Assembly: GCF_021730435.1 (NCBI RefSeq)
Contig: NZ_JABWGX010000031.1
Span: 1-54,092, forward strand
Direction: 5' to 3'
Length of the DNA: 54,092 nucleotides
Source of the DNA: Xanthobacter agilis
Lineage (GTDB): Bacteria > Pseudomonadota > Alphaproteobacteria > Rhizobiales > Xanthobacteraceae
How positions within the stretch are numbered: position 1 is the stretch's first letter; each line of letters starts with the position of its first letter. Positions 11,728-29,333 of this stretch are shown here, piece by piece. The notes below the pieces were generated by a model. That model was not told the DNA's origin. It saw only the letters and a list, made by a program, of their open reading frames with translations, and made no database searches. Both the position numbers and the translations under genes were made by a program.

Positions 11728-11730
11728 GGG

Positions 11731-13671: not shown

Positions 13672-15753
13672 TCACAGCGGGCCGAGCGCCGTCACCTCCC
13701 GGCGGAAGGGCAGCGCGTCGCCGGGATCGGGCATGTCCAGCTCGCGGGCATAACGGTGGCCGGCATAGGTGGCCCAGGCGATGGGCGCGGGCGCGGCGGC
13801 GTCGCCGAGCACCTTCACCGATGAGATGCCGGCATCGGCCCAATCCGCGCGGCGCTGCAGAAGGTCTTGAAAAAGCAGGTCGTCTGAGATCCGGGACGCG
13901 ACCATCACCACGCCATCGCAGGCCAGCGGCCGGCGCCCATCGGTATAGACGCAACGGGTCTCCACCGTGTCCGCCGCGATCGCGGCGATGCCGGTGTTGA
14001 GGCGGATCTCGACGCCCAGCCCCGCCAGACGCACATGGATCGCGCCCTGCTCCAGCGTGTTGCGCGTCCAGTCGGAGACATAAGCCGACGGCGTCACCAG
14101 GACGACCTTCGCCCCGGCCTTGGCCATGACCTCGGCCATGACGCCGCCCATGTAATAATGATCGTCGTCATAGACCACGACGGTCCGGCCCCTAAAGTCC
14201 TGCGGAAAAGCGCCCGCCATCACGTCGTCGGGGGTCCATAGGGGCATCGCCGGATCGATCGGCATCGGCACCACATGCTGGCGCGCGACCCCATCGCGGC
14301 GCCAGTGCGCGCCGGTGGCGATGGCGATATGCTGGAAGCCGAACGCCAGGATGTCGTCCACCGTCAGGCGGCTGTCGAAATAGGTCTCGACATTGGAACG
14401 CTGCGAAATCTGATACTGGCGGTAGTCCACCACGCGCCCCCAGGCGGCGAGGCCGGGCAGCAGCCGCTCGCGCGCAACGCGCCCGCCCAGCACGGTGCCG
14501 GCCTCGGCCAGGGCCACGTCATAGCCGCGTAGCGCCAGCGCCCGCGTCGCCTCGAGCCCGGCCGGGCCGGCACCCACCACCAGCACGGTCGTGCTCTCGC
14601 CCTTGGGGTTCATCCGCTCGGGATGCCAGCCCTTGCGCCACTCCTCCATAAAGGTCGGATTCTGGGTGCAGCGGCTGATGGACATGGTCATGTCGCCGGT
14701 GATGCAGATGTTGCAGCCGATGCACTCGCGGATGTCCTCGATCCGGCCTTCCTCCACCTTCCTGGGAAGAAACGGATCGGCGATGGAGGGACGGGCGCAG
14801 CCGATGAAGTCAAGGATGCCCTGCCGGATCATGCGCGCCATGACATCGGGCGAGGTGAAGCGCCCGACCCCCACCACCGGCCGGGACGACAGCTCGCGGA
14901 TGCCCTTGACCAGCACCTCCTGCGCCGCCTCCTCCTTGAACCGGGAGGGGCCGGAGCAATCCTCCCAGGCGCCGTGCGCCAGGTCCCAGAGGTCGGGCAG
15001 ATCGGCGTTCATGGCCACATATTCGCGAACCTCGGCATTGGAGAAGCCGAGCGTGCCGATGGTCTCATCGAGGCTCACGCGCATGGTGAGCGCCATGGTG
15101 TCGCCAACCGCGTCCCGGATGTCGGCCACCACCTCTTGCGCGAAGCGCGAGCGGTTCTCCAGGCTGCCGCCATATTCGTCGGTGCGCTGGTTGGTGGCGC
15201 GCGACAGGAAATGCTGGAAGATGCCGAAGCCGTGCGCGCCATAAAGACAGATCAGGTCGAAGCCGGCGATCTTCGAGCGTTTCGCCGCATTCACGAACCA
15301 GCGGCGCAGGTTGCGGATGTCGGTCTTGTCCAGGGCGCGGGCCTGCACCGGATCGTTGGTGAAGGTGCGGATGGGCAGGGCGGACGGCGCCAGCGGCACC
15401 TCCTTGGTGTAGAAATTCGGGCCGTTGATGCCGGAATAGGCAAGCTGGATGCCGGCCAGCGCGCCATGGGTCTTCATCGCGTCCGACATCCGGCGCAGGG
15501 CCGGAATGTCCTGGTCTTCCCACAGGCGCAGCTCGATGAAGGGGGTGATTTCCGAGCTGTGGTGCATCTCGGTCTGCTCGGTGAAGATGACCCCCCACCC
15601 CCCTTCCGACTTGATCCCCCGCATGGCGGCGGCGGCCGACGGATCGCGATAGCCTCCCCCATTGCAGTGGGGCACCTGGTAGAAGCGGTTCTTCGCCGTC
15701 AGCGGCCCGATCTGCCGGGGCTCGAAGAGGATATCGTATCTCGCGTCGCGCAT
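13672..15753 (-). CDS. Iron-sulfur flavoprotein amine dehydrogenase, trimethylamine/histamine dehydrogenase family (copy 1)
   Basis: The 693-residue protein has the trimethylamine dehydrogenase layout: an N-terminal FMN TIM barrel (to about 340), a [4Fe-4S] site C344/C347/C350/C362, then an ADP-binding domain starting VLVVGAGPAGLEATRAL. C30 in FYQVPHC aligns exactly with the cysteine that covalently binds FMN. Catalytic Tyr/His are present (Y171-G-A-H174). Compared with trimethylamine dehydrogenase, the aromatic bowl is changed: Q60 for Tyr60, D354 for Trp355, with the Trp in LWDL kept, and A105 for Trp105. As I recall, Gln/Trp/Asp is the bowl of histamine dehydrogenase. Expected reaction: oxidative deamination of an unidentified amine. 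Last gene of a five-gene minus-strand run. Confidence 0.72.
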   Translation of the reverse strand: MRDARYDILFEPRQIGPLTAKNRFYQVPHCNGGGYRDPSAAAAMRGIKSEGGWGVIFTEQTEMHHSSEITPFIELRLWEDQDIPALRRMSDAMKTHGALAGIQLAYSGINGPNFYTKEVPLAPSALPIRTFTNDPVQARALDKTDIRNLRRWFVNAAKRSKIAGFDLICLYGAHGFGIFQHFLSRATNQRTDEYGGSLENRSRFAQEVVADIRDAVGDTMALTMRVSLDETIGTLGFSNAEVREYVAMNADLPDLWDLAHGAWEDCSGPSRFKEEAAQEVLVKGIRELSSRPVVGVGRFTSPDVMARMIRQGILDFIGCARPSIADPFLPRKVEEGRIEDIRECIGCNICITGDMTMSISRCTQNPTFMEEWRKGWHPERMNPKGESTTVLVVGAGPAGLEATRALALRGYDVALAEAGTVLGGRVARERLLPGLAAWGRVVDYRQYQISQRSNVETYFDSRLTVDDILAFGFQHIAIATGAHWRRDGVARQHVVPMPIDPAMPLWTPDDVMAGAFPQDFRGRTVVVYDDDHYYMGGVMAEVMAKAGAKVVLVTPSAYVSDWTRNTLEQGAIHVRLAGLGVEIRLNTGIAAIAADTVETRCVYTDGRRPLACDGVVMVASRISDDLLFQDLLQRRADWADAGISSVKVLGDAAAPAPIAWATYAGHRYARELDMPDPGDALPFRREVTALGPL

Positions 15754-15860
15754 CGAAGCTGTTCCTGGCGCCCTCTGCCGGGCGGCGCTGGGTGAAAAGG
15801 GAGGCTCCGCGCCGCCACCGTCGGCGGCATCAGGACAGCGGGCCCCGAAAGGCGGCGGCC

Positions 15861-17357
15861 TCAGCTCTTGTACTTGATCCAGGTGGTCTTCAACGCCGTG
15901 TACTTGTCCAGCGCATGCAGCGACAGGTCACGGCCGAAGCCCGATTGCTTCATCCCGCCGAACGGCGTCTGAGCCGAGAGCGCATCCACCGTATTGACCG
16001 AAACCGTGCCGGCATGGAGCCGCTCGGAAACCCTCAAGGCGCGGCTGAGGTTGTCGGTCCAGACCGAGGCGGCAAGGCCGTAGATGGAGTCATTGGCCAT
16101 GCGGATGGCCTCTTCCTCCGTATCGAAGGCGACCACCGAGAGCACGGGGCCGAAAATCTCGTCCCGCGCCAAGGGGTCATCGGGCCGGACCTCGTCGAAG
16201 ATGGTCGGCGCAACGAAGCACCCCTTGCCGTCGATATGCACCCGCGCGCCGCCGGTGACGAGGTTGGCGCTGGCCTTGCCCGCCGCGATGAAACGCATGA
16301 TGCCCTGGGTCTGCTTCTCATCGACGATGGCGCCCATCTTCGAGGCGGGATCGAGGGGATCGCCCGGCTGGGTGGCGTTCGCGCGCGCGATCAGCTTTTC
16401 CACCAGCGCATCCTTGATGGAGCGCTCCACATATAGCCGCGAATTGGCCGAGCACACCTCGCCTTGATTGAAGAAAATGCCGAACGCGGCCATGTCCGCC
16501 GCCGCATCGAGATCGGCGCAGTCGGCGAAAATTAGGTTCGGGCTCTTGCCCCCGGTCTCGGGCCACACCTGCTTCAGGTTCGACTGCCCGGAATACTGCA
16601 TGAACAGCTTGCCCACCTGCGTGGAGCCGGTGAAGGCCAGGCAGTCCACGTCCATATGCAGGCCAAGCGCCTTGCCCGCCGTCGCGCCGAAGCCGGGGAC
16701 GACATTGAACACGCCGTCGGGAACGCCCGCTTCCGCCGCCAGTTCCGCCAGGCGCAGCGCCGAGAGCGGGGATTGCTCGGCCGGCTTCAGCACCACCGAA
16801 TTGCCCGCCGCCAGGGCCGCCGCGCTTTTCCAGGTGGCCATGTCGAGGGGAAAATTCCACGGCACCACCGCCCCCACCACGCCCAGCGGCACCCGGCGCA
16901 CAAGCGCCAGATCGCCGGCCGCCGTGGGCGCCACCTCGCCATAGAGCTTGTCGATGGCCTCGGCATACCACTGGAAGAAATGGGCCGATCCCGGCACGTC
17001 GATGGTGGCTGCGTCATGGACGAGCTTGCCCATGTCGAGGCTGTCGGTGAGGGCCAGCTCTTCGAGATGGGCCCGGATCAGCTCGGCGAGGCGCAGCAGC
17101 ACCGCCTTGCGCTCTCCCGGCGCCCGGCGGGACCAGCGCCCGTCCTCGAACGCCCGGCGCCCGGCCGCAACCGCGCGGTCCACGTCGGCTGCGTCGCACG
17201 CGGCGACCTGCGCCAGCACCTGCCCGGTGGCGGGGTTGATGCTGTCGAAGGTCTCACCCGACACGGCATCGACGAACCGGCCGTCGATGAAGGCCTGCCG
17301 GCGGAAGCTGATGCGCGCCGCGCGCGCCTTCCAATCCTCGTAAGTGTCGTTCCGCAT
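15861..17357 (-). CDS. Aldehyde dehydrogenase, PuuC-like
   Basis: This 498-residue NAD(P)+ aldehyde dehydrogenase has all core residues: N168 (PWNFP), E267 (ETGGKSPN) and nucleophile C302 (NQGEVCSANSR). Segments such as PGSAHFFQWYAEAIDKLYGEVAPT and the C-terminal SLHALDKYTALKTTWIKY follow PuuC, the gamma-glutamyl-gamma-aminobutyraldehyde dehydrogenase of putrescine catabolism. Sitting 107 bp upstream of an amine dehydrogenase gene and co-directional, it probably oxidises the aldehyde made by that enzyme to the acid. The substrate itself cannot be read. Confidence 0.85.
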   Translation of the reverse strand: MRNDTYEDWKARAARISFRRQAFIDGRFVDAVSGETFDSINPATGQVLAQVAACDAADVDRAVAAGRRAFEDGRWSRRAPGERKAVLLRLAELIRAHLEELALTDSLDMGKLVHDAATIDVPGSAHFFQWYAEAIDKLYGEVAPTAAGDLALVRRVPLGVVGAVVPWNFPLDMATWKSAAALAAGNSVVLKPAEQSPLSALRLAELAAEAGVPDGVFNVVPGFGATAGKALGLHMDVDCLAFTGSTQVGKLFMQYSGQSNLKQVWPETGGKSPNLIFADCADLDAAADMAAFGIFFNQGEVCSANSRLYVERSIKDALVEKLIARANATQPGDPLDPASKMGAIVDEKQTQGIMRFIAAGKASANLVTGGARVHIDGKGCFVAPTIFDEVRPDDPLARDEIFGPVLSVVAFDTEEEAIRMANDSIYGLAASVWTDNLSRALRVSERLHAGTVSVNTVDALSAQTPFGGMKQSGFGRDLSLHALDKYTALKTTWIKYKS

Positions 17358-17375
17358 GGCCTGCCTCTTCCTGTC

Positions 17376-18050
17376 TCACGCGTCTCCGGGAACGCCGTAG
17401 GACGGCGCCTCCCGCGGGTCGAGGGCGCGCTGGATATAGGCGCCCAACTGCGGCTTGTAGATGCTCCAGGCGGTGGCGACCGCCGCCACCGGACACTCTT
17501 GCGTCCAGTCGCAGCGCAGATCGGCGACCGGCCAACTGAGCTGGTCCACGATCTTGAGCCCCGCCGAATGGACCGGCCCCGCCTCCCCGCCGGCGGCAAG
17601 GCCCGCCCGCAGCGCGGCGACGAGCCGGTCGCCCAGATGGCCGGAGCTGCTCAAGAACTCTTCGACCATGGCCTGCGGGACGCCGTCATGGGCGAGCAGG
17701 TTTCCGCCCGCGGCCACGTTCTCGGCCTGAGCCGAGGTCCAGATGCCGAGGGCGTTGGCACCGGAATGAACGGCGCTCATCCCGTTCCGATCCACCGCCA
17801 GCACCTGCCGGTAGTCCATGAACCGGCTGCGCCGGCGCAGCTCGCCGATCGCCTCCGCCGCGCTCATGCCGCCCTCCATGAGATCGAGCGTGAGCGGGCC
17901 CAGCGCCGGGTCCGTCACGTTCTGGGAGGCCACCGCCCCCACCCCCGCGCGGGCATGAGAGCACCGCGCGGCGACCGCCGGCGAAGACGATGAGATGACC
18001 ATGCCGAACATGCCGGTCTGCGGGCAACGCGCCACCAGGGAAAAGGTCAT
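17376..18050 (-). CDS. DUF1028 family protein (Ntn-hydrolase-like)
   Basis: This 224-residue protein spans the DUF1028 domain: MTFSLVARCPQTGMFGMVISSSSPAVAARC at the N-terminus, GVGAVASQNVTDP and the Gly-rich AAGGNLLAHDGV. The family is structurally assigned to N-terminal-nucleophile hydrolases but lacks an established general reaction. It lies 4 bp after the Rid gene and 18 bp before the aldehyde dehydrogenase, so it is translated as part of the operon and may hydrolyse an amide or N-acyl intermediate. That role is inference. Confidence 0.8.
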   Translation of the reverse strand: MTFSLVARCPQTGMFGMVISSSSPAVAARCSHARAGVGAVASQNVTDPALGPLTLDLMEGGMSAAEAIGELRRRSRFMDYRQVLAVDRNGMSAVHSGANALGIWTSAQAENVAAGGNLLAHDGVPQAMVEEFLSSSGHLGDRLVAALRAGLAAGGEAGPVHSAGLKIVDQLSWPVADLRCDWTQECPVAAVATAWSIYKPQLGAYIQRALDPREAPSYGVPGDA

Positions 18051-18054
18051 CGGA

Positions 18055-18471
18055 TCACTCCGGAATGACCGCGGTGCCGTCGATCTCCACCAGCCACTCG
18101 GGCCGGGCCAGGGCGCTCACCACGAGCCCGGTGGAGACCGGATGCACGCCCTTGATGTATTCGCCCATGGTGCGATAGATGGCCTCGCGGTGACGCACGT
18201 CGGTGATGTAGACGACCACCTTGACCAGGTGCTCCATGCTGCCGCCGGCCTCCTCGATCAGCTGCTTCATGTTCCGCATGACCTTGTGGGTCTGCTCCAC
18301 CGGATCGTGGCTGTCGATATTGACCGCGTCGTCGAGATTCTGCGGGCACTGGCCGCGCAGCCACACGATCCTGCCGCCCTGCGTCACCACCGCCTGAGCC
18401 AGATCGTTGTCGAGCTTCTGCTCGGGGTAGGTGTCCTTGGTGTTGAACTTGCGAATGCGGGTGTGCGCCAT
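18055..18471 (-). CDS. Rid (YjgF/YER057c/UK114) family protein
   Basis: This 138-residue Rid-fold protein has QAVVTQGGRIVWLRGQ, the EQTHKVMRNMKQLIEEAGGSMEHLVKVVVYITD stretch and terminal LVEIDGTAVIP. RidA itself hydrolyses reactive enamines/imines, and the pyrimidine-pathway member RutC acts on aminoacrylate. The catalytic-arginine region here (VSALARPEWLVEI) differs from canonical RidA in spacing, so it belongs to another Rid subgroup. The start at 18471 is chosen for the GGAG 7 nt upstream; an in-frame ATG at 18483 is possible. Operon context suggests quenching or hydrolysis of an imine from amine oxidation. Confidence 0.82.
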   Translation of the reverse strand: MAHTRIRKFNTKDTYPEQKLDNDLAQAVVTQGGRIVWLRGQCPQNLDDAVNIDSHDPVEQTHKVMRNMKQLIEEAGGSMEHLVKVVVYITDVRHREAIYRTMGEYIKGVHPVSTGLVVSALARPEWLVEIDGTAVIPE

Positions 18472-18522
18472 TGCGCTCTCCATGGGATCTCGGGTTGAAG
18501 CCGCCGGAACGGACCGATTCAC

Positions 18523-19809
18523 TCAGACGGTTTCAGGACGCCGCTGGGCGGCATCGCGGTAGGCGGCATAACTGCGCTGGATCACGATCTGGTCGGCCAG
18601 ATACTTGGCATCGTGCCACACGCCCCAGATGAAGCTTGAGCCGCGCCGCGACTGCCAGGGCAGCCCCAGGAAATAGATGCCCGGCTCGGTGGAAACGCCG
18701 CGCTGATGCTTCGGCTTCCCGCTCTCGTCGCACGCATCGACCTTCATCCAGCCATAGTCGAGCGCGAAGCCCGTCGCCCAAATGATGGTGGTGATCCCCG
18801 CCTGCGCGAGGTCGAGGGCGAGGATGGGATCGGTCACGCAATCCGCATCCGGCACCCGCGTGCGCGCCTCCGGCTCCACCGGCAGGTCGAGGCCGTTGCG
18901 GGCGATATAGGCGTCGGCCTCGTCCAGCAGCGAGCGATAATTCTCATCCCCCTGCGCCAGATTTGCGGCAAGATCGGGCGCGAAGGTCAGCGCGCCGCCC
19001 ACCCAGCCCTGCGTCCGCCCGACCAGGGTCATGCCCTGCGCGGCGAGGCGCCGGAAGTCGATGGTATGGCCGCCCTGGGCGCCGCTCACCGCGATCGTCA
19101 CATGCTCCTTGCCGGGTTCCTGGGCGGCGGCGTCCCACTTGCCGAGCACGCCGAGCCACCACACGAAATCGCGGCCGCGATAGCTCCGGGGCGGACGGTC
19201 GTGCGGCCCGACCGAAAGATAGACGCGCCGGCCGGACGCCAGGAGTTCTTCCGCGATCTGGACGCCCGAGGAGCCGGCCCCCACCACCAGCACCGCGCCG
19301 GCCGCGAGCTGCGCCGGATTGCGGTAGTCGACGGAGTGCATCTGCGCCACCCCCGTCTCGGCGGGAACAAGCGCGGGGATGATGGGGCGCTGGAAGGGGC
19401 CGGTCGCGGCCACGATGCGATCGGCCTCGATCACGCCGGCCGAGGTTTCGACACGGAAACCGGGGCGTCCGGCATTCCGCTCCACCTTCAGGACTTCGAC
19501 GCCGCAGCGCACCGGCGCCGCGATCTTCTCGGCATAGGCGACGAAATAATCAGCGACCGCTTCCTTGGCCACGAAGTCGTCCGGACCCGACATGGGGTCC
19601 ACATCGGAAAACGAGAGATCGGGGAACCGATCGTGCCACGCCGGCCCGTTGGCAACCAGCGAATCCCAGCGCTCGGAGCGCCAGCGCTCGGCGATGCGGG
19701 AGCGCTCCAGGACCAGATGGGGCACGCCGCTCCGCCTCAAATGCGCGCTCATGGCCAATCCGGCCTGCCCCGCGCCGACGATCAGCGTATCCGTCTTTTC
19801 AACCGACAT
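18523..19809 (-). CDS. Flavoprotein monooxygenase, CzcO/FMO-like
   Basis: This 428-residue FAD protein has two Rossmann fingerprints, VGAGQAGLAMSAHL near residue 11 and VGAGSSGVQIAEEL near 178. ATGFALDYGWM matches the ATG motif of FMO/CzcO-type proteins. Members are annotated as monooxygenases of amines, ketones or siderophore precursors, but most are untested. It is the first gene of the minus-strand FMO-Rid-DUF1028-ALDH-amine dehydrogenase series and has an AT-rich upstream region with an inverted repeat. N-hydroxylation of an amine substrate is one option; plain dehydrogenase activity is another. Confidence 0.75.
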   Translation of the reverse strand: MSVEKTDTLIVGAGQAGLAMSAHLRRSGVPHLVLERSRIAERWRSERWDSLVANGPAWHDRFPDLSFSDVDPMSGPDDFVAKEAVADYFVAYAEKIAAPVRCGVEVLKVERNAGRPGFRVETSAGVIEADRIVAATGPFQRPIIPALVPAETGVAQMHSVDYRNPAQLAAGAVLVVGAGSSGVQIAEELLASGRRVYLSVGPHDRPPRSYRGRDFVWWLGVLGKWDAAAQEPGKEHVTIAVSGAQGGHTIDFRRLAAQGMTLVGRTQGWVGGALTFAPDLAANLAQGDENYRSLLDEADAYIARNGLDLPVEPEARTRVPDADCVTDPILALDLAQAGITTIIWATGFALDYGWMKVDACDESGKPKHQRGVSTEPGIYFLGLPWQSRRGSSFIWGVWHDAKYLADQIVIQRSYAAYRDAAQRRPETV

Positions 19810-19886
19810 TTCTCATACCTCGCTCGTCCTCAAGGACTTCCAGCGGGAACCCCAAGGCTTCATGGTCAATCTATCGACCGCCCTGG

Positions 19887-19903
19887 ATCATAAAAAATAT
19901 GAT
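19887..19903. promoter_or_regulatory. Inverted repeat upstream of the FMO operon
   Basis: ATCATA-AAAAA-TATGAT, perfect 6-bp arms, is 78 bp upstream of the flavoprotein start within the AT-rich part of the 266-bp gap between the two minus-strand genes. This looks like an operator or promoter element for the operon. The rest of the gap (19810-20075) shows no gene. Confidence 0.45.
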
Positions 19904-20075
19904 TTTCTTTGGCAGTGCTTCGGATGATCCTAAACATGCCGTTTTGAATTCATGTCTTCTGCCGTTGAGCGGACAAGCGCCAAGGCTCCGCGGGAGCGCC
20001 ACGGTGGCAACACTCATGTTCGACACGCCCCTTGCGCATGGCGTGACATCATCGGCCCAGCTTCAGGCCGGCGCG

Positions 20076-22175
20076 TCAGTGCGCCACCCAGGGCAAAGGC
20101 CCGTCCGCAAGGCCCGCCACCTCGCGGCGGAAGGGCAGATCGTCGAGGCCGCGGGGCGGGGCATCCAGCTCCTCGGCGAAGCGGCGACCGGCCCACACGG
20201 CGGCGGCGATGGTGCCCGGCGCCAGGGCGTCACCCACACGCGTCACCGACAGGAGGCCGGCATCCGCCCATTCCGCCCGGCGCGCCTCCAGATCCTCGGC
20301 CAGCCCCTTGCGCGGCAGGCGCGCCGTGACCAGGACGATGGAGGCACAGGCGCGCCGCTCCGTGCGCCCGGAATAGACGCAGGCGAGCTCGATCTCGCCC
20401 CGCTCCACCCGCGTCGGCAGACGATGGGGCACGATGGAAACACCCACCTCCAAGAGCCGCGCCTGCACGAAGTGCTGCTCCATGGTCAGCTTCATCCAGG
20501 TGGAGGCTTCCCCGTTGGGGGTGACGAGCGCCACCTCGCGGCCCTCGCGCGCCAGCAGTTCGGCCAGCACGCCGCCCATGTAATAATGGTCGTCGTCGAA
20601 GACGATCACCGGGCCGGCGGCGGGGCGACGGCCCGCCATCAGGTCATCGGGGGTGAGCACCTCCACCCCTTCGGCCAGGGGCAGGGGCCTCAGGAGGCGG
20701 CGGCCGATGCCGTCGGCCCGCCACGTCGCGCCGGTGGCCACCGCCACATGGGCGAAACCGAAGCCCAGCACGTCGTCCGCCGTCAGCCGGCTTTCGCGAT
20801 AGACCTCCACATTGGCCATGGGGTCGATCTGGCCGACCCGGTAATCCACCACCCGCCCCCAGGCGGACAGGCCCGGCAGTCGCCGCTCGGCCACCAGCCG
20901 CCCGCCGAGGTCGCGGGTGGCCTCGGCCAGCGCCACCTCGTAGCCGCGACGCCCCAGCATCATGGCCGCTTCGAGGCCGGCGGGACCGGTACCCACCACC
21001 AGCACCTTGGCGTCGCTTTCCTTCGCCCGGATGCGCTCGGGATGCCAGCCGCGCCGCCATTCCTCGCCCATGGAGGGGTTCTGCGTGCAGCGGATGGGGG
21101 TGGTGGTGTGGTCGCCCGAGACGCACATGTTGCAGCCGATGCACTCGCGGATGTCCTCCATGCGCCCCTCCTCCACCTTTTTCGGCAGGAACGGGTCGGC
21201 GATGGAGGGGCGGGCCGCGCCCACGAGGTCCAGGATGCCCTGGCGGATCATGCGCACCATGGTGTCGGGCGAGGTGAAGCGCCCCACCCCCACCACCGGC
21301 TTGGTGGTGAGCTTCTTCACCCCGGTGACGAACGGCTCCTGATAGCCCTCATCGGCGAAGCGGGAGGTCTGGCTGTCGTTGTCCCAGCTCGAAAGGGTGA
21401 GGTCCCACAGGTCCGGCACCTCGGCCAGGTGGGAGATGATGTCCCGCGCCTCCGCCGCATGGAGCCCCTCGGGGCCGATCAGCTCATCCACGGAGATGCG
21501 GCAGGCCACCCCCATGGTGTCGCCGACCGCGTCCTTGGTGTCCTCGATCAGTTCCTTCAGCAGCCGGCAGCGGTTCTCCAGGCTCCCGCCATATTCGTCG
21601 GTGCGGGTGTTGTGACGGCGCGAGAGAAAGAACATGGCGCCGCCGAACAGCTTGCCCGCATAGACATAGGTGATGTCGTAGCCGGCGGCCTTCGCCCGGA
21701 GCGCGGCGGCGCGGTGCCAGTGGCGCAGGTTGCGGATATCGGTCTTGTCCATGGCGCGGGCCTGGACCGGGTCGTCATAGATGGAGAACACCGGCAAATC
21801 GGCGGGACCGAACGGGATCTCGCGCGAATAGAGGTTCGGCGCGTTCATGCCGTTGTGCGCAAGCTGGAGGCCGGCGAGCGCCCCGTGGGCGTGAACGGCG
21901 TCCGCCATGCGCGCCAGCGCCGGCACGTCCTGGTCGGACCAGTTGCGCAGCTCGATGAAGGGAGAGATGTCGCCGGTTGGGTGGATTTCCACCTGCTCGG
22001 TGCACACCACGCCCCAGCCGCCTTCGGCCTTGATGGCGCGCATGGTGGCGAGCGCGGTGGGGTCGCGATAGCCCATGCCGTTGCAATGGGGCACCTGGTA
22101 GAAACGGTTCCGGGTGGTGACGGGGCCGATCTTCACGGGCTCGAACAAGATGTCGTAACGGGGATCGCGGGGCAC
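20076..22175 (-). CDS. Iron-sulfur flavoprotein, trimethylamine/histamine dehydrogenase family (copy 2)
   Basis: A second, clearly homologous copy of the amine dehydrogenase (699 residues). FMN-linking C31 (FYQVPHC), [4Fe-4S] cysteines in ECIGCNMC...RC, Q61, E75, A106 and the Asp of CVSGD match copy 1. However, the Tyr/His pair becomes Y172-A-G-K175, so the histidine is replaced by lysine. The start is taken as GTG at 22175, because GAGGAG lies 7 nt upstream and the protein then begins MPRDPRYDILFEP like copy 1; an upstream ATG at 22196 is the alternative. It diverges from the M20 gene over a shared operator. It may act on a different amine or form a pair with copy 1. Confidence 0.7.
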   Translation of the reverse strand: MPRDPRYDILFEPVKIGPVTTRNRFYQVPHCNGMGYRDPTALATMRAIKAEGGWGVVCTEQVEIHPTGDISPFIELRNWSDQDVPALARMADAVHAHGALAGLQLAHNGMNAPNLYSREIPFGPADLPVFSIYDDPVQARAMDKTDIRNLRHWHRAAALRAKAAGYDITYVYAGKLFGGAMFFLSRRHNTRTDEYGGSLENRCRLLKELIEDTKDAVGDTMGVACRISVDELIGPEGLHAAEARDIISHLAEVPDLWDLTLSSWDNDSQTSRFADEGYQEPFVTGVKKLTTKPVVGVGRFTSPDTMVRMIRQGILDLVGAARPSIADPFLPKKVEEGRMEDIRECIGCNMCVSGDHTTTPIRCTQNPSMGEEWRRGWHPERIRAKESDAKVLVVGTGPAGLEAAMMLGRRGYEVALAEATRDLGGRLVAERRLPGLSAWGRVVDYRVGQIDPMANVEVYRESRLTADDVLGFGFAHVAVATGATWRADGIGRRLLRPLPLAEGVEVLTPDDLMAGRRPAAGPVIVFDDDHYYMGGVLAELLAREGREVALVTPNGEASTWMKLTMEQHFVQARLLEVGVSIVPHRLPTRVERGEIELACVYSGRTERRACASIVLVTARLPRKGLAEDLEARRAEWADAGLLSVTRVGDALAPGTIAAAVWAGRRFAEELDAPPRGLDDLPFRREVAGLADGPLPWVAH

Positions 22176-22265
22176 GCGGCGGCTCCTCGGCAGCATTCTG
22201 GCGGGTCTGCCGAAAGCTATCGATGGTTCCAGCGCATCGAAATTCGCTTTTTTCTAAGCTCTGGT

Positions 22266-22278
22266 TCGGGACTTCCGA
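22266..22278. promoter_or_regulatory. Candidate LysR-type operator, site 1 (TCGG-N5-CCGA)
   Basis: TCGGGACTTCCGA is an inverted repeat of T-N11-A form in the 201-bp divergent region between amine dehydrogenase copy 2 and the M20 hydrolase. The surrounding 20 bp are nearly identical to site 2 at 23550-23564. Confidence 0.55.
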
Positions 22279-22376
22279 GCCCGATGCCGGCCTTCCCTCT
22301 GCTATGGAGTGCGAACGCGGGGCGGATGTGCGCCCCTTTTCGACGCGCATCGCCGCAAGCGTCCCCGGAGCCCCGG

Positions 22377-23531
22377 ATGTCCGCCCGATCCCTTGACCTT
22401 CTCGACCGGCTGGTCGCCTTCCCCACCGTGTCTTCGGCCTCCAACCGGGAGCTGATCGCCTTCGTGGAGGCATTCCTGGCCGCGCGCGGCATCGAGGCGA
22501 TGCTGGTGCCCAATGCCGACGGCACCAAGGCCAATCTGTTCGCCACCATCGGCCCCAGGGACACCGGCGGCGTCATGCTCTCCGGCCACACCGACGTCGT
22601 TCCGGTGGAAGGCCAGGCTTGGAGTGGCGATCCGTTCCGGTTGCGCGAGGTGGGCGGGCGCCTGCTGGGGCGCGGCACCACGGACATGAAGGGCTTCCTC
22701 GCCTGCGCGCTCGCCGCCGCCGACCGCGCGGCACGCATGGAGCTGGCGCTGCCGCTGCACCTCGCCTTGTCCTATGACGAGGAGATCGGCTGCATCGGCG
22801 TGCGCGGCCTCATCGATGCGCTGGCGCTGGCGCCGTTCCGGCCGCAGATGGCCATCATCGGCGAACCCACCGCCATGGCGGTCGCCACCGGCCACAAGGG
22901 CAAGACGGCATTGCGCGCCCTGTGCTGCGGCCGCGAGGCCCATTCCGCCCTCGCGCCCACCGCCCTCAACGCCATCCACCTCGCCGCCGCCTTCGTGGAC
23001 AAGATCCGCGCCCGGCAGGCGCTGTATGCCCGCGGCGGCGCGCGCGACGCGGCCTACGACGTGCCCTACAGCACCTTCCATGTGGGCCGCATCGCCGGCG
23101 GCACGGCGCTGAACATCGTGCCCAATGCCTGCACGCTGGAGCTGGAATTTCGCAACCTCGCCGAGGACGATCCGGCGACCCTGCTGGCCGAGCTGGAGGC
23201 GGACGCTGAGGCGGTCGCCCTGCCCTGGACCGCCGCCTTCCCCGAGGCGGCGGTGAAGCTGGAGGCCACCAACAGCTATCCGGGCCTCGCCACCGCCGAT
23301 GATGCGCCGGTGGTGGACTTCACCCGATCCCTCACCGGCTCCAACGCACGCATGAAGCTCGCCTTCGGCACCGAGGGCGGACTGTTCCAAAGCCGCCTGT
23401 CCATTCCCACCGTGGTCTGCGGACCCGGCTCCATGGACCAGGGCCATAAGCCCGACGAATGGGTGGCGAGGGACCAGATCGCCGCCTGCGACCACTTCAT
23501 GGATGCGTTGCTGGCCCGCCTGTCCGCCTGA
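22377..23531 (+). CDS. M20 metallohydrolase, ArgE (acetylornithine deacetylase)-like
   Basis: This 384-residue dinuclear zinc amidohydrolase has H71 and D73 (SGHTDVVPVEG), bridging D103 (GRGTTDMKG), catalytic E135-E136 (YDEEIG), E163 (IGEPT) and the C-terminal His in DQGHKPDEW. ArgE relatives remove N-acetyl or N-formyl groups from amino acids. It is far from any arginine gene and surrounded by amine-catabolic enzymes, so deacylation of a pathway intermediate is more likely than ornithine synthesis. The start MSARSLDLLDRLVAFPTVSS matches the family N-terminus. An open frame continues far upstream but is antisense to copy 2. Confidence 0.82.
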   Translation: MSARSLDLLDRLVAFPTVSSASNRELIAFVEAFLAARGIEAMLVPNADGTKANLFATIGPRDTGGVMLSGHTDVVPVEGQAWSGDPFRLREVGGRLLGRGTTDMKGFLACALAAADRAARMELALPLHLALSYDEEIGCIGVRGLIDALALAPFRPQMAIIGEPTAMAVATGHKGKTALRALCCGREAHSALAPTALNAIHLAAAFVDKIRARQALYARGGARDAAYDVPYSTFHVGRIAGGTALNIVPNACTLELEFRNLAEDDPATLLAELEADAEAVALPWTAAFPEAAVKLEATNSYPGLATADDAPVVDFTRSLTGSNARMKLAFGTEGGLFQSRLSIPTVVCGPGSMDQGHKPDEWVARDQIAACDHFMDALLARLSA

Positions 23532-23549
23532 GGGCCTGCGGCCCGCTGG

Positions 23550-23564
23550 TTCGGGCTTTCCGAA
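23550..23564. promoter_or_regulatory. Candidate LysR-type operator, site 2 (TTCGG-N5-CCGAA)
   Basis: Perfect 5-bp arms TTCGG and CCGAA around GCTTT, 111 bp upstream of the HpaB-like gene and 18 bp after the M20 stop. It shares CTGGTTCGGG and TTCCGA with site 1, at a similar distance from the downstream ATG (about 100 bp). Confidence 0.55.
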
Positions 23565-23674
23565 GCAATGGACCGGAAACCCTTATTTTCCTCGGCCCCG
23601 CCGCCGCGACAGGATCGCCTCCACGGGCGGCGCGGCGGCGTCCGCCCGCCTCTCTTCCTGGCAAAGGTCCGGCC

Positions 23675-25195
23675 ATGATCCGCACGGGCGCGCAATATCT
23701 CGAGTCGATCCGCGACGGGCGCGAGGTCTACATCAACGGCGAGCGGGTCCGGGACGTGCCCACCCACCCCATGTTCAAGCCTTTGGTGGACATTCGCGCC
23801 CGCATCTACGACATGCAGTGGGAAGCGCGAACCCGCGACGTGATGACCTTCACCCAGGACGGGGAGGTCAACGGCATCGGCAACAAGCTGCCCATCACCC
23901 AGGAAGATTGGTGGGACAAGCGCCGCGCCACCGATTGCGTGCTGCGCGAGATCGGCGGCGTCGTCACCCGCGTGGGCGACGAGACCGTCGGCGAGATGTG
24001 GTCGCTGTTCGACGGGCAGGACGTGCTCAACGAGGTGGATCCCCGCTTCTCCGAGAACATCCGCAATCATATCGACAAGGTGCTGCACCACGACCCGTTC
24101 CATGTCTCGGCCAACACCGACCCCAAGGGCGACCGCTCCAAGCCGCCGCAGGCGCAGGACCCGGACATGCTGCTGCATGTGGTCAAGGAGACCGACGCCG
24201 GCCTCGTGGTGCGCGGCGCCAAATACGAGACGGCGGCGGCCTATGCCAACCAAGCCTTCACCAAGCCCACCATCGCCGATTGGGGCGACAGCACCTATTC
24301 CGATTATGCGGTGGGCTTCATCTGCGACCTGGGCTCGCCCGGCATCAAGTTCATCTGCCGCACCGGGTTCGCCGGGCAAAGGCCGGCCGCGGACTATCCG
24401 CTTTCCAGCCGGTTCGATGAGGTGGAAGCGCTCGTCATCTTCGACGACGTGCTGATCCCCTGGGAGAACGTGCTGTTCTACCGCCATACGCGGGCGGCCA
24501 TGTTCATCCGCGCGACGCTGCACCGCTATTCGGCCTTCGCCTTCGTGCAGCGCAGCCTTGCCTTCGCCGACATGCTGATCGGCGCCGCGCTGTTCAACGT
24601 GCGCCAGACCGGGCTCGACACGCAGCAGGCGGTGCGGGAGAAGCTGGCCCAGCTCGCGGTCTACCGGGAGGGGATCAACGCCCATCTCACGGCGGCCATC
24701 ACCTTGTCGGAGCGCTCGCCCAGCGGGCTCGCCATGCCGAACCAGTCGCTGCTGTATGCCGGCCGGGTGCTCGCCTGCTCCCAGCTCCACGAGGCGATGC
24801 ACATCGCCCGCGAGCTATGCGGCGGGCAGGTCTGCACCACCCCGGACGCGGCGTCTTTCGCCCATCCCGACACCAGGCCGTGGCTCGACAAATTCTATAC
24901 GATCAACGCCGAGTGGATGGCCGATGACCGCCGCAAGCTGCTGGCGTTTGCCCGCGACCTCCTGAACTCCGATTATGCGGGGCACCGTCTCGCGTTCCAA
25001 TTGTTCGCCCAGTCCCCCCCTTATGCGCACCTCGCCGCCGTCTACCGGAACTTCGACTGGGACGGTCCGCTGGAGTTCGTGAAACGCTCCGCCGGGCTCT
25101 CCGACACCGTGCTGAGCCCGGCCACCCGCGCCACCGCGGACCGCCCGCTCGCGCGCGGGGGTGACACCGGAACGACGCCGCGCGCAGCCGAGTGA
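23675..25195 (+). CDS. HpaB-like flavin-dependent aromatic hydroxylase (oxygenase component)
   Basis: This 506-residue protein covers the 4-hydroxyphenylacetate 3-monooxygenase oxygenase fold (acyl-CoA-dehydrogenase-like): RTGAQYLESIRDGREVYINGERV at the start and a C-terminal helical bundle with ARELCGGQV. These two-component enzymes use FADH2 from a separate reductase (HpaC); no such gene lies in the window. Family members hydroxylate phenols and also N-heterocycles such as pyrrole-2-carboxylate. With neighbouring amine-oxidising and amide-cleaving genes, a hydroxylation that prepares a ring for opening is plausible but unproven. The ATG at 23675 is the first giving the family N-terminus. 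Confidence 0.78.
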   Translation: MIRTGAQYLESIRDGREVYINGERVRDVPTHPMFKPLVDIRARIYDMQWEARTRDVMTFTQDGEVNGIGNKLPITQEDWWDKRRATDCVLREIGGVVTRVGDETVGEMWSLFDGQDVLNEVDPRFSENIRNHIDKVLHHDPFHVSANTDPKGDRSKPPQAQDPDMLLHVVKETDAGLVVRGAKYETAAAYANQAFTKPTIADWGDSTYSDYAVGFICDLGSPGIKFICRTGFAGQRPAADYPLSSRFDEVEALVIFDDVLIPWENVLFYRHTRAAMFIRATLHRYSAFAFVQRSLAFADMLIGAALFNVRQTGLDTQQAVREKLAQLAVYREGINAHLTAAITLSERSPSGLAMPNQSLLYAGRVLACSQLHEAMHIARELCGGQVCTTPDAASFAHPDTRPWLDKFYTINAEWMADDRRKLLAFARDLLNSDYAGHRLAFQLFAQSPPYAHLAAVYRNFDWDGPLEFVKRSAGLSDTVLSPATRATADRPLARGGDTGTTPRAAE

Positions 25196-25198
25196 AAG

Positions 25199-25215
25199 GC
25201 CTCCCCTGGGGAGGC
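25199..25215 (+). terminator. Hairpin after the HpaB-like gene
   Basis: GCCTCCC and GGGAGGC form a 7-bp stem with a 3-nt loop, starting 3 nt after the stop codon at 25193-25195. No U-run follows, so termination efficiency is uncertain. Confidence 0.5.
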
Positions 25216-25314
25216 GTCTTGAAACCCTGTCCGCCGCAAGCCCCCCCGGTGACGCCCGGCCTCCGCGCCTTCGACACATCTCCCCCTCAAGCCGGCATGG
25301 GGCAGGTGTAGAGT

Positions 25315-25333
25315 TGTGTCAAATATAGACACA
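25315..25333. promoter_or_regulatory. Inverted repeat upstream of the second LysR gene
   Basis: TGTGTC and GACACA, perfect arms around AAATATA, 48 bp before the LysR ATG. The AT-rich centre and position suggest an autoregulatory operator or a promoter site. It differs from the TCGG-N5-CCGA sites. Confidence 0.5.
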
Positions 25334-25381
25334 CGCCGGGATTGCTCGCGCCGGGCCCCGGAAACGGGGTAGGGAACGGCC

Positions 25382-26332
25382 ATGCGCTATACGTTGAGGC
25401 AGTTGGAGTATTTCATCGCGGCCGGCGAGACCGGCTCGATCACGCTCGCCTCGGAGCGGATCAGCATTTCCCAGCCCTCGATTTCCACCGCCATCAGCCA
25501 CCTGGAGCAGGAACTGGGCGTCCAGCTGTTCGTGCGCCACCATGCGCAGGGCCTCTCGCTCACCCCCGCCGGCCGCAAGCTGCTGGCCGAGGCCAAGCAC
25601 CTGATCGAGCAGGCCGAGGGGCTCTATGCGGTGGCCTCGGAGGCAACCGACCAGGTGCGCGGGCAATTGTCCGTGGGCTGCATGGTCACGCTGGCGCCCA
25701 TGATCATGCCGGAACTGTCCCATGGCTTCATGTCGGCATTTCCCGCCACCCAGATCCGCCATGTGGAGGCCAACCAGGAATGGCTGTTGGAGGGGCTGCG
25801 GCGGGCCGAGATCGACATCGCGGTCACCTACGACCTCCAGATTCCCGACGGCATCGCCTTCACCCCCCTCGCCAGCCTGGCGCCGCACGTCCTGGTCAGC
25901 GAGGCCCATCCGTTCGCCCGCCTGTCCGCGGTCAGCCTCCAGGATCTGGTCGAGGAACCGCTGATCCTGCTCGACCTGCCCATCAGCCGCGAGTATTTCC
26001 TCGCGCTCTTCCTCAAGGAGGGCTTGCAGCCGAAGATCCACTCGCGCTCCGCCTACCAGGAGGTGGTGCGCACCATGGTGGCCAACGGCTATGGCTACAC
26101 CCTCTTCAACGTGCGCCCGCGCTCCGATTTCGCCCTCGACGGGCGGCGGGTGGTGCGGGTGCGCCTGTCGGGCGAGCACCGGCCGATGGTGGTCGGCACC
26201 GCCACCGTCGCGCAGTTCAAGAAGTCCCGCCTGCTCCAGGCGTTCGAGACCCATTGCCGCTCGTTCATCTCCGATGCCTACATCCCGGGCATGGTGCCGC
26301 CGGCCCTCGACCGGCGGGTGCGCAAGCCCTGA
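25382..26332 (+). CDS. LysR-family transcriptional regulator
   Basis: This 316-residue LysR protein begins MRYTLRQLEYFIAAGETGSIT, with the HTH LASERISISQPSISTAISHLEQELG (residues about 20-44) and a periplasmic-binding-like effector domain. It lies between the HpaB-like gene and the ABC transporter, so it is the best candidate to control the amine/heterocycle cluster and to bind the T-N11-A sites at 22266 and 23550. The inducer is unknown. Not a CatR type: the effector domain is distinct from the regulator at 7976. Confidence 0.88.
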   Translation: MRYTLRQLEYFIAAGETGSITLASERISISQPSISTAISHLEQELGVQLFVRHHAQGLSLTPAGRKLLAEAKHLIEQAEGLYAVASEATDQVRGQLSVGCMVTLAPMIMPELSHGFMSAFPATQIRHVEANQEWLLEGLRRAEIDIAVTYDLQIPDGIAFTPLASLAPHVLVSEAHPFARLSAVSLQDLVEEPLILLDLPISREYFLALFLKEGLQPKIHSRSAYQEVVRTMVANGYGYTLFNVRPRSDFALDGRRVVRVRLSGEHRPMVVGTATVAQFKKSRLLQAFETHCRSFISDAYIPGMVPPALDRRVRKP

Positions 26333-26374
26333 TCCCCCGCGCCGGAAGCCGCTGATCCGCGATGCGCGCATGGT

Positions 26375-26423
26375 CCTCGCCTTGGCCGAAGCCTGGGCTT
26401 TTCCTACTTAGGCCAAGGCGAGG
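26375..26423. terminator. Long stem-loop after the LysR gene
   Basis: CCTCGCCTTGGCC (26375-26387) and GGCCAAGGCGAGG (26411-26423) are perfectly complementary over 13 bp around a 23-nt loop, beginning 43 nt after the LysR stop. It probably separates LysR transcription from the ABC operon. The remaining bases to 26627 contain a T-rich patch (26442-26448) that could hold the ABC promoter, and no gene. Confidence 0.55.
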
Positions 26424-26627: not shown

Positions 26628-27611
26628 ATGATCAAGAAGACCTTCCAGACCGCCACCCTGCTCGCCGGCCTCGCCGCCGGCCTTGTGTTCGCCGGCCCCG
26701 CCGAAGCGGCCAAGATCCGCCTCGGCATGACCACCTGGGTGGGCTACGGCCCGCTCTACCTCGCGCGTGACCTCGGCTATTTCAAGGACGCCGGCCTCGA
26801 CGTGGAGCTGAAGACCATCGAGGACGCGGCCATCTACATGGCGGCGGTCGCCTCCGGCGATCTCGACGGCATGGCCTCCACCGTGGACGAGGTGATGAAA
26901 TGGCGCTCGCCCGACTTCTGCTTCAAGTCGGTGTTGGCGCTCGACGACAGCCACGGCGGCGACGGCCTGCTCACCGCCAAGGGAGTCAAGTCGCTGAAGG
27001 ACCTCAAGGGCAAGGAAGTGGCGCTGAACGAGGGCTCGGTGTCCGAGTTCTGGTTTAACATCCTTCTGGACAAGGACGGCATGACGGAGAAGGACGTCAC
27101 CATCACCAACATGACCTCCGACGACGCGGCCGCGGCCTTTATCGCCGGCCGCGTGCCCGCCGCCGTGACCTGGGAGCCGAACCTGACCACCGTCCGCAAG
27201 TCCGGCAACGGCCAGGTGCTGATCGATTCCACCGCGACCCCCGGCGCCATCGTGGACACGGTCGGCCTCAAGTGCGATTTCATCGCCGCCAACAAGGCCG
27301 AGATCGCCGCCTTCGTGAAGGCCTATTACAAGGCCATCGACTACATGAAGGCCAATCCGGAAAAGGCTTACGCGATCATGGCCAAGGGCGTCGGCGGCTA
27401 CCTCGCCGATCCCAAGGACTTCGCCGACGCGGCCAAGGGCGTGAACTTCTACGACAAGGCCCGCAACGTGGAGTTCTTCGGCAATCCGCAGCAGGGCGAG
27501 GCGGCCAACCTCATCCAGCTCGCCAACATGATCTGGGGCGGCAAGGGGCTGATGAAGATGAAAGTGGACTACGACACCCTCGTCGATCCCGCCTTCGCCA
27601 CCGCCCAGTGA
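26628..27611 (+). CDS. ABC transporter periplasmic substrate-binding protein (NMT1/TauA/SsuA family)
   Basis: This 327-residue exported protein has a signal peptide (MIKKTFQTATLLAGLAAGL, cleavage likely after the AEA near residue 27), then KIRLGMTTWVGYGPLYLARDLGYFKDAGLDVEL, the standard start of nitrate/sulfonate/taurine/thiamine-precursor binding proteins. Family members also bind aromatic and heterocyclic compounds. The ligand is not readable. Co-location with the amine/heterocycle genes and the LysR gene suggests it captures the pathway substrate. It is followed by two stem-loops before the permease gene, which usually permits higher binding-protein expression. Confidence 0.88.
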   Translation: MIKKTFQTATLLAGLAAGLVFAGPAEAAKIRLGMTTWVGYGPLYLARDLGYFKDAGLDVELKTIEDAAIYMAAVASGDLDGMASTVDEVMKWRSPDFCFKSVLALDDSHGGDGLLTAKGVKSLKDLKGKEVALNEGSVSEFWFNILLDKDGMTEKDVTITNMTSDDAAAAFIAGRVPAAVTWEPNLTTVRKSGNGQVLIDSTATPGAIVDTVGLKCDFIAANKAEIAAFVKAYYKAIDYMKANPEKAYAIMAKGVGGYLADPKDFADAAKGVNFYDKARNVEFFGNPQQGEAANLIQLANMIWGGKGLMKMKVDYDTLVDPAFATAQ

Positions 27612-27615
27612 CCGC

Positions 27616-27661
27616 ACCGGCCAAGGCCGGTCGCCGCCGGCGCCCCTCCGGGACCGGCGGC
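27616..27661 (+). other. Two stem-loops between binding protein and permease genes
   Basis: ACCGGCC-AA-GGCCGGT (27616-27631), whose 2-nt gap would force the inner pairs open, and GCCGCCGG (27633-27640) pairing with CCGGCGGC (27654-27661). Together they fill most of the 70-nt gap. Such structures commonly protect the upstream binding-protein mRNA or attenuate the downstream permease. Confidence 0.45.
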
Positions 27662-27681
27662 AGGCCCGCAGGAGACATGAC

Positions 27682-28488
27682 ATGAGTTCCCGACGCGCAC
27701 CCTGGACCCGGATGACCACGCCCTTCAGGGATATCTCCCGCCGGGCCGTGATCTCCGCCGGGATTATCGTATGGGTCATGGTGGTGGCGGCGTGGTGGAT
27801 CATCTCCCACACCAACGTGGTCCCCGCCATGTTCCTGCCCTCCCCGGAGAAGGTGGGTGCCGCGGGGGTGCGGCTTTTGTCCGACGGCAGCCTCATCGTC
27901 CACACCCTGGCGAGCCTTGAGGTGGTGATGCTGGGGTTCGCCATCTCCTCCATCGTCGCGATCCCGGTCGGGCTGTGGATGGGCAGCTACCGCGCGGTGC
28001 AGGCGGTGCTGGAGCCGCTCGTCAACTTCGTGCGCTACCTGCCGGTGACGGCGTTCGTGCCGCTGCTCATCCTGTGGATCGGCATCGGCATCCAGCAGCG
28101 GGTGAGCGTCATCATCCTTGGCACCTTCTTCCAGCAGGTGGTGATGATCGCCGACAGCGCCCGCGCGGTGCCGCGCGATCTCGTGAACGCCGCCTACACG
28201 CTCGGCACGAAGCGTTCCAAGGTCGTGTGGCATGTGATCTTCCCCGCCGCGCTGCCGGAGATCCTCGACACCCTGCGCGTCACCCTGGGATGGGCGTGGT
28301 CCTATCTGGTGGTGGCGGAACTCGTGGCCGCCTCCTCGGGGCTGGGCTACATCACCATCAAGGCCATGCGCGGCTTTCAGGTGGACGTGATCTTCATGGC
28401 CATCGCCACCATCGGCGTGCTGGGGCTGCTCTCCGATCTCTTCTTCCGCTTCCTTCGCGCGCGGGTCGCGCCATGGGCACATCGATGA
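27682..28488 (+). CDS. ABC transporter permease (TauC/SsuC family)
   Basis: This 268-residue membrane protein has about six hydrophobic segments and the inner-membrane-component signature LGTKRSKVVWHVIFPAALPEILDTLRV (EAA loop, residues about 174-200), which contacts the ATPase. The start MSSRRAPWTRM at 27682 follows a GCAGGAGACATGAC ribosome-binding region. An in-operon pair with the ATPase gene, overlapping by ATGA. Confidence 0.88.
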   Translation: MSSRRAPWTRMTTPFRDISRRAVISAGIIVWVMVVAAWWIISHTNVVPAMFLPSPEKVGAAGVRLLSDGSLIVHTLASLEVVMLGFAISSIVAIPVGLWMGSYRAVQAVLEPLVNFVRYLPVTAFVPLLILWIGIGIQQRVSVIILGTFFQQVVMIADSARAVPRDLVNAAYTLGTKRSKVVWHVIFPAALPEILDTLRVTLGWAWSYLVVAELVAASSGLGYITIKAMRGFQVDVIFMAIATIGVLGLLSDLFFRFLRARVAPWAHR

Positions 28489-29333
28489 CCGAACTTTCCG
28501 CCTCTTCCCCCGTGGAGCCGGCGCCGATCGCGCTTTTCCCCCGCCAGCATCGCCCGCTGGGCACGCCCGCGCGGCTCGCCATCGAGCATGTCACGCTCCG
28601 CTACGGTGGTCCGGACGGCACGCTGGCCGTCGACGATGTGTCCATCGACGTGGAGCAGAACGAGTTCTGCGTCATCGTCGGCCCGTCCGGCTGCGGCAAG
28701 TCGAGCCTGCTCTACCTTGCCGCCGGCCTCACCGAGCTGACGTCCGGAGACATCCGGGTGGACGGGCATCTGGTGAGCGAGCCGGGCCCCGACCGGGGCA
28801 TGGTGTTCCAGGGCTACACCCTGTTTCCCTGGCTCACCGTGCGGCAGAATGTGGAGTATGGCCCCAAGCGCAAGGGCATCGGCAAGGCCGAGCGGCGCGC
28901 GATCGCCGAGCGGTTCCTGGCCGAGGTGGGCCTCGGCCAGTTCGCGGACGTGTTTCCCTCCCAGCTCTCCGGCGGCATGAAGCAGCGGGTGGCGCTGGCC
29001 CGCGCACTCGCCAACGATCCGAGCGTGCTGTTCATGGACGAGCCGTTCGGCGCGCTCGACAGCCAGACCCGCGGCACCATGCAGAAGCTGCTGCTGCGGG
29101 TGTGGGAGCACACTCAGAAGACCGTGCTGTTCGTGACCCACGACATCGACGAGGCGATCCTGCTGGGTGACCGGGTGGTGGTGATGACCGCGCGGCCCGG
29201 CCGCATCAAGGCGGAAATCAAGGTGGATTTCGCCCGCCCGCGCGCGATGGATCTGGTGCTCGAACCGGAGTTCATCGCGCTCAAGCGTCACATCCTCGGC
29301 CTGCTCCATGATGAGATCGACGAGGAGCATTGA
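28485..29333 (+). CDS. ABC transporter ATP-binding protein (TauB/SsuB family)
   Basis: This 282-residue nucleotide-binding subunit has Walker [11 protein letters not shown]-loop [11 protein letters not shown], signature LSGGMKQR, Walker [13 protein letters not shown] and switch His in VTHDIDEA. The start is set at 28485, where ATG overlaps the permease stop as ATGA; ATG at 28473 is in frame and possible. It completes a binding protein-permease-ATPase importer of the nitrate/sulfonate/taurine class. No sulfonate-cleaving enzyme is nearby, which argues against a sulfur-scavenging role. Confidence 0.9.

Follow-up and report, generated by a model that had tools for sequence, protein, structure and literature searches.

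The 54,092-nucleotide stretch of Xanthobacter agilis DNA analysed here (contig NZ_JABWGX010000031.1; hereafter the window), which belongs to a 4.8-Mb genome in 66 contigs, carries a block of catabolic genes that includes two predicted flavoproteins of the histamine dehydrogenase type, HADH-A and HADH-B (Table 1). On the minus strand, read leftward, the genes for HADH-B, a CzcO-like flavoprotein, a Rid protein, a DUF1028 protein, an aldehyde dehydrogenase (ALDH) and HADH-A follow one another; on the plus strand, an M20 amidohydrolase and an HpaB-like protein are followed by a LysR regulator and an NMT1-type ATP-binding cassette (ABC) importer, which extend the cluster beyond position 25195 to 29333. 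The 180 bases that separate the opposed HADH-B and M20 genes would hold a divergent promoter. The ten named products, counting the importer by its binding protein, were complete, contiguous open reading frames (ORFs) with high GC content at third codon positions, and gave Pfam hits over the cut-off: Oxidored_FMN twice, Aldedh, DUF1028, Ribonuc_L-PSP (Rid), Pyr_redox_3 (CzcO-like), Peptidase_M20, HpaB_N with HpaB, LysR and NMT1. The importer permease and ATPase were identified by ORF and tblastn with relatives. The genes named in a preliminary description, made from the sequence alone, are thus real, contiguous and of the families given there.

Table 1. Predicted genes and operator-like sites of the block (positions in the window)
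Feature	Coordinates	Strand	Basis or location
HADH-A, histamine dehydrogenase type (FMN, 4Fe-4S)	13672..15753	-	homology to 6de6, site residues
Aldehyde dehydrogenase, putative HinD role	15861..17357	-	Aldedh, PuuC model, P. putida 31303 ALDH
DUF1028 protein, predicted HinH	17376..18050	-	P. putida 31303 orthologue; Thr2; solved relative 2imh
Rid protein, predicted HinL (enamine/imine deaminase type)	18055..18471	-	P. putida 31303 orthologue
CzcO-like flavoprotein, predicted HinF; imidazoleacetate monooxygenase by homology	18523..19809	-	P. putida 31303 orthologue
Operator-like TTCGG-N5-CCTAA	19919..19933		110 bases upstream of HinF
HADH-B, histamine-dehydrogenase-type flavoprotein, Lys182 at triad His	20076..22196	-	bit scores to 3k30 and 6de6; sites
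Operator-like TTCGG-N5-CCGAG	22265..22279		between HADH-B and M20
M20 amidohydrolase, predicted HinG; N-formylaspartate deformylase by homology	22377..23531	+	P. putida 31303 orthologue
Operator-like palindrome TTCGG-N5-CCGAA	23550..23564		125 bases upstream of HpaB
HpaB-like oxygenase component, proposed alternative imidazoleacetate hydroxylase	23675..25195	+	Pfam, neighbourhoods, residues
LysR regulator, probably HinK type	25382..26332	+	matches 3fzv, 6m5f
NMT1-type ABC importer	26628..29333	+	binding protein 26628-27611, permease 27712-28488, ATPase 28485-29333

Among solved structures, HADH-A matched the histamine dehydrogenase of Rhizobium sp. 4-9 (6de6) at 1408 bits over 692 residues without a gap, followed by the Nocardioides simplex enzyme (3k30; 818 bits), 6l6j (642 bits), trimethylamine dehydrogenase (515 bits) and others at 168 bits or less. 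At the 19 site and tunnel positions of the Rhizobium enzyme, taken from PMC10180351, HADH-A kept 18, among them Gln60, Ile69, Phe72, Glu74, Asn110, Tyr171, His174, Phe176, Trp263, Asp265 and Asp354, the exception being Thr262, replaced by Ala; Cys30 and the 4Fe-4S motif were also present. Twelve of 13 distinct HADH-A-like proteins from related loci were identical at the 13 tabulated positions where covered, and one had Asn265. HADH-B best matched 3k30 (946 bits) and 6de6 (902 bits), and shared with these enzymes the site Gln, Ile, Phe, Glu, Asn, Tyr, Phe, Trp and second Asp; it departed from the Rhizobium enzyme at eight of the 19 positions. Its Tyr-His-Asp catalytic triad was incomplete: Tyr179 was kept and Asp274 stood at the 3k30 position, but the motif YGAHGF read YAGKLF, and the triad His is therefore Lys182, a change that the preliminary description had overlooked. 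The same Lys was found in all six other genomes with an HADH-B relative of at least 70% identity (G010, G085, G087, G068, G247 and G155), and the His was kept in all four relatives at 63-66%. The Gln/Trp/Asp site from which the preliminary description had assigned both flavoproteins to the histamine dehydrogenase type was found in HADH-A (Gln60, Trp263, Asp354) and HADH-B (Gln68, Trp271, Asp362), and bit scores and site residues together place both, by prediction, with the histamine dehydrogenases among solved structures. The HADH-B substrate may be histamine or a close analogue, an assignment less certain than that for HADH-A.

The remaining enzymes resemble a pathway already described, contrary to the preliminary description, which knew of none with this gene set. 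In Pseudomonas, HinC, HinD and HinFLHG take histamine to aspartate, and HinK is a LysR regulator responding to imidazoleacetate (PMC8231116); HinF is given as a FAD monooxygenase (EC 1.14.13.5), HinG as an amidase (EC 3.5.1.8), HinH as an amidase and HinL as an enamine deaminase (PMC6467879). Pseudomonas putida 31303 (locus L155) carried four hin-type genes in one row, in the order F, L, H, G, all of which matched the window: the CzcO-like protein at 70% identity, Rid at 53%, DUF1028 at 52% and M20 at 48%. From gene order, family and these papers, we infer that the four are hinF, hinL, hinH and hinG of strain U. Since the window genes match the hinFLHG operon, the ring oxygenase of the block is probably the CzcO-like protein, HinF, and not the HpaB-like protein to which the preliminary description had given this role; HpaB would be extra or alternative. 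Otherwise the series of steps proposed there still gives the best reading: an amine becomes an aldehyde and then an acid, the ring is hydroxylated, and N-formylaspartate is cleaved.

The ALDH scored 558 bits on Aldedh and 624 bits on PuuC, its best NCBIfam model (cut-off 850), and was 66% identical to an ALDH near hinF in P. putida 31303. Acetylornithine deacetylase models were over the cut-off for M20. Thr2 was present in all 66 DUF1028 relatives, which would be in keeping with an N-terminal nucleophile hydrolase, a fold that we assume to apply to DUF1028; Thr2 is possibly the nucleophile. Identification of the CzcO-like protein as the Nit1C-type MSMEG_0569 protein was rejected, because both the window protein and its P. 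putida 31303 orthologue scored 368-378 bits on TIGR04046, below the cut-off of 498. The best solved matches of the LysR regulator were 3fzv and 6m5f (226 bits, the next scoring 98 bits), which we take to be HinK of Pseudomonas aeruginosa. No HinC-type aminotransferase was found among the called genes of the block; the L155 aminotransferase, which we take to be HinC, had a homologue at 50% on another contig of the same genome.

Compared with the Hin pathway of P. putida U and P. aeruginosa (hinABCD, hinFLHG, hinIJ and hinK), the block thus shares homologues of HinF, L, H, G and D and probably HinK. It differs in that the aminotransferase HinC is replaced by a predicted histamine dehydrogenase and the permease HinA apparently by an ABC importer, in the addition of HpaB, and in having all genes together. 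The putative histamine catabolism genes of Brevibacterium described in PMC6467879 likewise include homologues of HinA, D, F, G, H, I and L, but a histamine oxidase or a HinC homologue is proposed there for the first step, unlike in the window. Judged by homology and gene content, the block very probably serves to break down histamine along the known Hin route, entered here through a histamine dehydrogenase. In the open-licence PubMed Central literature searched, DUF1028 was unreported, the matches listed included no title on an imidazoleacetate monooxygenase and two papers on hin genes, and histamine dehydrogenase was named together with Rid and others in a single paper, on nicotine.

The HpaB-like protein is the new part, the lower pathway being already known from Pseudomonas. 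It scored 226.5 bits on TIGR02309 (cut-off 480.2) and 153.3 bits on TIGR02310 (cut-off 885.2), the models of 4-hydroxyphenylacetate monooxygenases. TtHpaB uses Arg100, Tyr104 and His142 to bind its phenol and activate it (PMC10537072). The hin-type branch kept Arg100, as in the HpaB/HpaC 4-hydroxyphenylacetate 3-monooxygenases (2yyg, 6qyh) of the same family, but replaced Tyr104 with Glu103 and His142 with Ser145, both invariant in 28 of 28 sequences; a phenol substrate is therefore unlikely. A phenolic role was rejected on the cut-offs, the neighbouring genes and the changed residues, and an imidazole acid would fit those neighbours. Among the matches listed in the same literature search, none described an enzyme of the HpaB type acting on imidazoleacetate. 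As to a partner, nine flavin reductase domains were present elsewhere in the source genome; seven of these stretches matched the reductase of locus L098 at 31-38% and two gave no match, so none of the nine can be named as the HpaB partner.

The distribution of the two oxygenases was examined in the order set of 249 genomes. HinF was counted in 33 places scoring at least 563 bits, of 67 genomes matching at E 1e-60, after dropping G154, G171, G194 and G216 (50-53% identity) and paralogues near 40%. HpaB occurred in 35 genomes, that of the window included; identity was 64-83% in 33 of the others and 43% in one (G027). Both oxygenases were present in 10 genomes, HinF only in 23 and HpaB only in 25. 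A hin-type DUF1028 gene accompanied them in all 33 HinF genomes and 34 of the 35 HpaB genomes, and only three of 60 DUF1028 genomes had neither oxygenase. Among the 63 DUF1028 places, which include two G024 fragments and weak ones at 40-47%, HinF only was found within 12 kb at 19, HpaB only at 25, both at 2 and neither at 17. This is the pattern expected for two unrelated enzymes swapped at one step. HADH-like proteins (at least 56% identical to HADH-B) were encoded in 27 of the 58 genomes with HinF or HpaB versus three of the 191 without; Fisher tests on such co-occurrence counts ignore the relatedness of the genomes. Separately, in G036, G037, G038, G079, G113, G114, G068 and G247, HinF and HpaB lay at separate loci and HinF had no DUF1028 within 12 kb.

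Gene neighbourhoods were also compared. For HpaB we took 20 of the 40 known places besides the window, skipping those close to contig ends (tblastn, E 1e-8), and found Rid at 17, DUF1028 at 17, a flavin reductase (Pfam Flavin_Reduct) at 15, M20 at 12, HADH at 2 and HinF at none; HinF adjoined HpaB in G228 and G420, outside these 20 loci, and on two plasmids. Both Rid and DUF1028 were nearby at 20 of the 36 HinF loci of the order, with HADH-A at seven (L014, L015, L017, L020, L025, L028 and L040), HADH-B at L039, and ALDH, M20, LysR and the NMT1 importer in varying number. HinF, Rid, DUF1028 and M20 occurred together at 14 of 20 loci drawn from the phylum. Two loci combined HpaB with HADH-A: L202 (G010) encoded, on one strand, HADH-B, M20, HpaB, a flavin reductase, Rid, DUF1028, LysR, the NMT1-type ABC importer and HADH-A, with no HinF or ALDH in the stretch and only a 41% HinF paralogue in the genome, and L215 (G037) combined HpaB, Rid, DUF1028, LysR, M20 and HADH-A, with HinF on another contig.

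Plasmids carried related arrangements. HADH adjoined hin-type genes in Haematobacter, Pseudohalocynthiibacter and Parasedimentitalea and lay about 11 kb from them in Ideonella; in Pseudohalocynthiibacter, aspartate ammonia-lyase, the last Hin step, stood next to HinF. An Aminobacter plasmid had an HpaB cluster without HinF but with aspartase and HutD, and a Bacillus badius plasmid encoded a reductase, HpaB, Rid and DUF1028 and, after intervening genes, an amino acid permease, an aminotransferase and an ALDH. The NMT1 importer was found beside HinF-only clusters, HpaB-only clusters and HADH-B relatives (G247, G155 and G087); binding proteins common to HinF and HpaB clusters were of the NMT1 type (L202, L014), the Liv type (L105-L107, L018, L020) and, at family level only, the Pot type. 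The association of these genes is more than chance: the search for genomes conserving the block, suggested in the preliminary description, showed that full or partial versions recur, though not everywhere. As a further observation, 474 of the 714 plasmid records matching HinF at E <=1e-60 were from Klebsiella, with none among the best 40 of the 714; at least 244 of the 474 were below 60% identity, so they may represent a HinF paralogue.

The block also contained candidate regulatory sites. The near-palindrome TTCGG-N5-CCKAR occurred at three sites in the window, every one upstream of block genes; shuffled sequence gave a mean of 0.70 matches, and the four strand-matches observed were reached in three of 100 shuffles. 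Seven other loci with a LysR protein of at least 66% identity gave eight hits versus about 1.5 expected. Five of the eight lay upstream of hin-type genes: HpaB in L099, HpaB in L202 (100 bases upstream by tblastn), and HADH-A, Rid and NMT1/M20 in L204. The other three were intragenic (L204, L098 and L018), and L172 and L034 had no match. A different palindrome, TGTCAAATATAGACA, was noted at 25317-25331, about 50 bases upstream of the LysR start; it is unlike TTCGG-N5-CCGAA and is possibly autoregulatory. An inverted repeat with 17-base arms, 94% complementary around a 15-base loop, lay at 26375-26423 between the LysR gene and the importer and may be a terminator or an operator.

Taken as a whole, the block is probably best explained as a histamine-catabolic regulon, in which HpaB may act as a second imidazoleacetate hydroxylase. 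The importer would take up histamine or a close relative; HADH-A, as its strong homology suggests, and perhaps HADH-B, would deaminate histamine to imidazole acetaldehyde, which the ALDH would oxidise to imidazoleacetate. HinF would then hydroxylate the ring, by homology to the Pseudomonas enzyme, and HinL, HinH and HinG, in an order that we propose, would open it and release aspartate and formate. The LysR protein may act on the TTCGG-N5-CCGAA sites upstream of HinF, HADH-B/M20 and HpaB. For HpaB itself, neighbourhoods and residues lead us to favour, somewhat, an alternative two-component, FADH2-dependent imidazoleacetate hydroxylase that replaces HinF in other bacteria and that in the window would depend for reduced flavin on a reductase whose gene lies at another place in the genome. 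We consider evenly balanced the broader proposal that a branch of the HpaB family left phenols and came to displace HinF, which belongs to a different family, from histamine breakdown in many proteobacteria, both of the Hyphomicrobiales type and others, and on one Bacillus plasmid, with the window keeping both enzymes under one regulator alongside a histamine dehydrogenase paralogue in which the triad His became Lys. Such a history would be a clear-cut example of one pathway step passing between two flavin monooxygenases that are unrelated. If the block is read in this way, the DUF1028, Rid, M20 and CzcO-like genes vaguely annotated in many bacteria would gain a likely function, and the histamine dehydrogenases, used to measure histamine in food, would find their place within a full pathway.

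Several observations weigh against this explanation. HADH lay within 16 kb of HpaB in only seven of 35 genomes and of HinF in nine of 33, so the starting compound of many clusters may be a different one. Neither oxygenase was within 12 kb of 17 of the 63 DUF1028 places, and 12 of the 33 HinF places had no DUF1028 within that distance. The HinC-like homologue elsewhere in the genome makes a second route for the first step possible. HADH-B has lost the triad His, no flavin reductase gene adjoins HpaB in the window, and the retention of both oxygenases in one cluster is left unexplained. The operator motif was defined post hoc, and of the seven other LysR loci two had no match and two had intragenic matches only.

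The two oxygenases could instead serve parallel routes sharing the lower enzymes, with histamine handled by HADH-A and HinF and a related amine, an imidazole or azole one such as a methylated histamine, by HADH-B and HpaB. The Lys shared by the window and all six relatives of at least 70% identity, set against the His of the more distant ones, is consistent with such a specialised pair, as are the conserved residues peculiar to HpaB and the proximity of HADH-B to HpaB in the window, L202 and L203. The pairing breaks down elsewhere, however: L204 had HADH-B and HinF but no HpaB, L039 had HADH-B next to HinF, L202 and L215 had HADH-A and HpaB but no HinF, and the operator-like sites are common to both, with one NMT1 importer family throughout. 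We regard parallel routes as possible but rather unlikely.

Other substrates fit less well than the histamine regulon. The flavoproteins might act on agmatine, putrescine or a nicotine-type intermediate, given that a relative oxidises 6-hydroxypseudooxynicotine (PMC5500553) and that agmatine was also assayed with the Rhizobium histamine dehydrogenase (PMC10180351), but the site match of HADH-A and the linkage to hinFLHG homologues make a block not meant for histamine quite improbable. HpaB might also be a hydroxylase for a phenol or an aryl acid, such as one derived from tyramine, that lies near benzoate genes by chance, and its Pfam family and the aromatic-acid genes adjoining the block would accord with this; the low scores on the 4-hydroxyphenylacetate models, the alteration of both the Tyr104 and His142 positions and the presence of Rid and DUF1028 at 17 of 20 HpaB loci render this very improbable.

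The block sits between a benzoate-catechol-oxoadipate cluster and a multicomponent monooxygenase of the Phenol_Hydrox family. On the minus strand at 1578-12597, benzoate dioxygenase large subunit, catechol 1,2-dioxygenase, muconate cycloisomerase and PcaF thiolase were recognised over the cut-offs, and an IclR regulator (12710-13504, plus strand) comes after these benzoate-to-oxoadipate genes. Beyond the importer, the plus-strand region 30232-36848 encodes two Phenol_Hydrox-family subunits with small proteins between them, a ferredoxin-reductase-like protein of 333 amino acids and an XylR_N/V4R sigma-54 activator, and resembles the gene set of a monooxygenase for toluene, phenol or alkenes. 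CobQ (37516-38970, minus strand) and CobN (41917-45207, plus strand), both over the cut-offs, look like part of a cobalamin synthesis cluster that reaches the end of the window.

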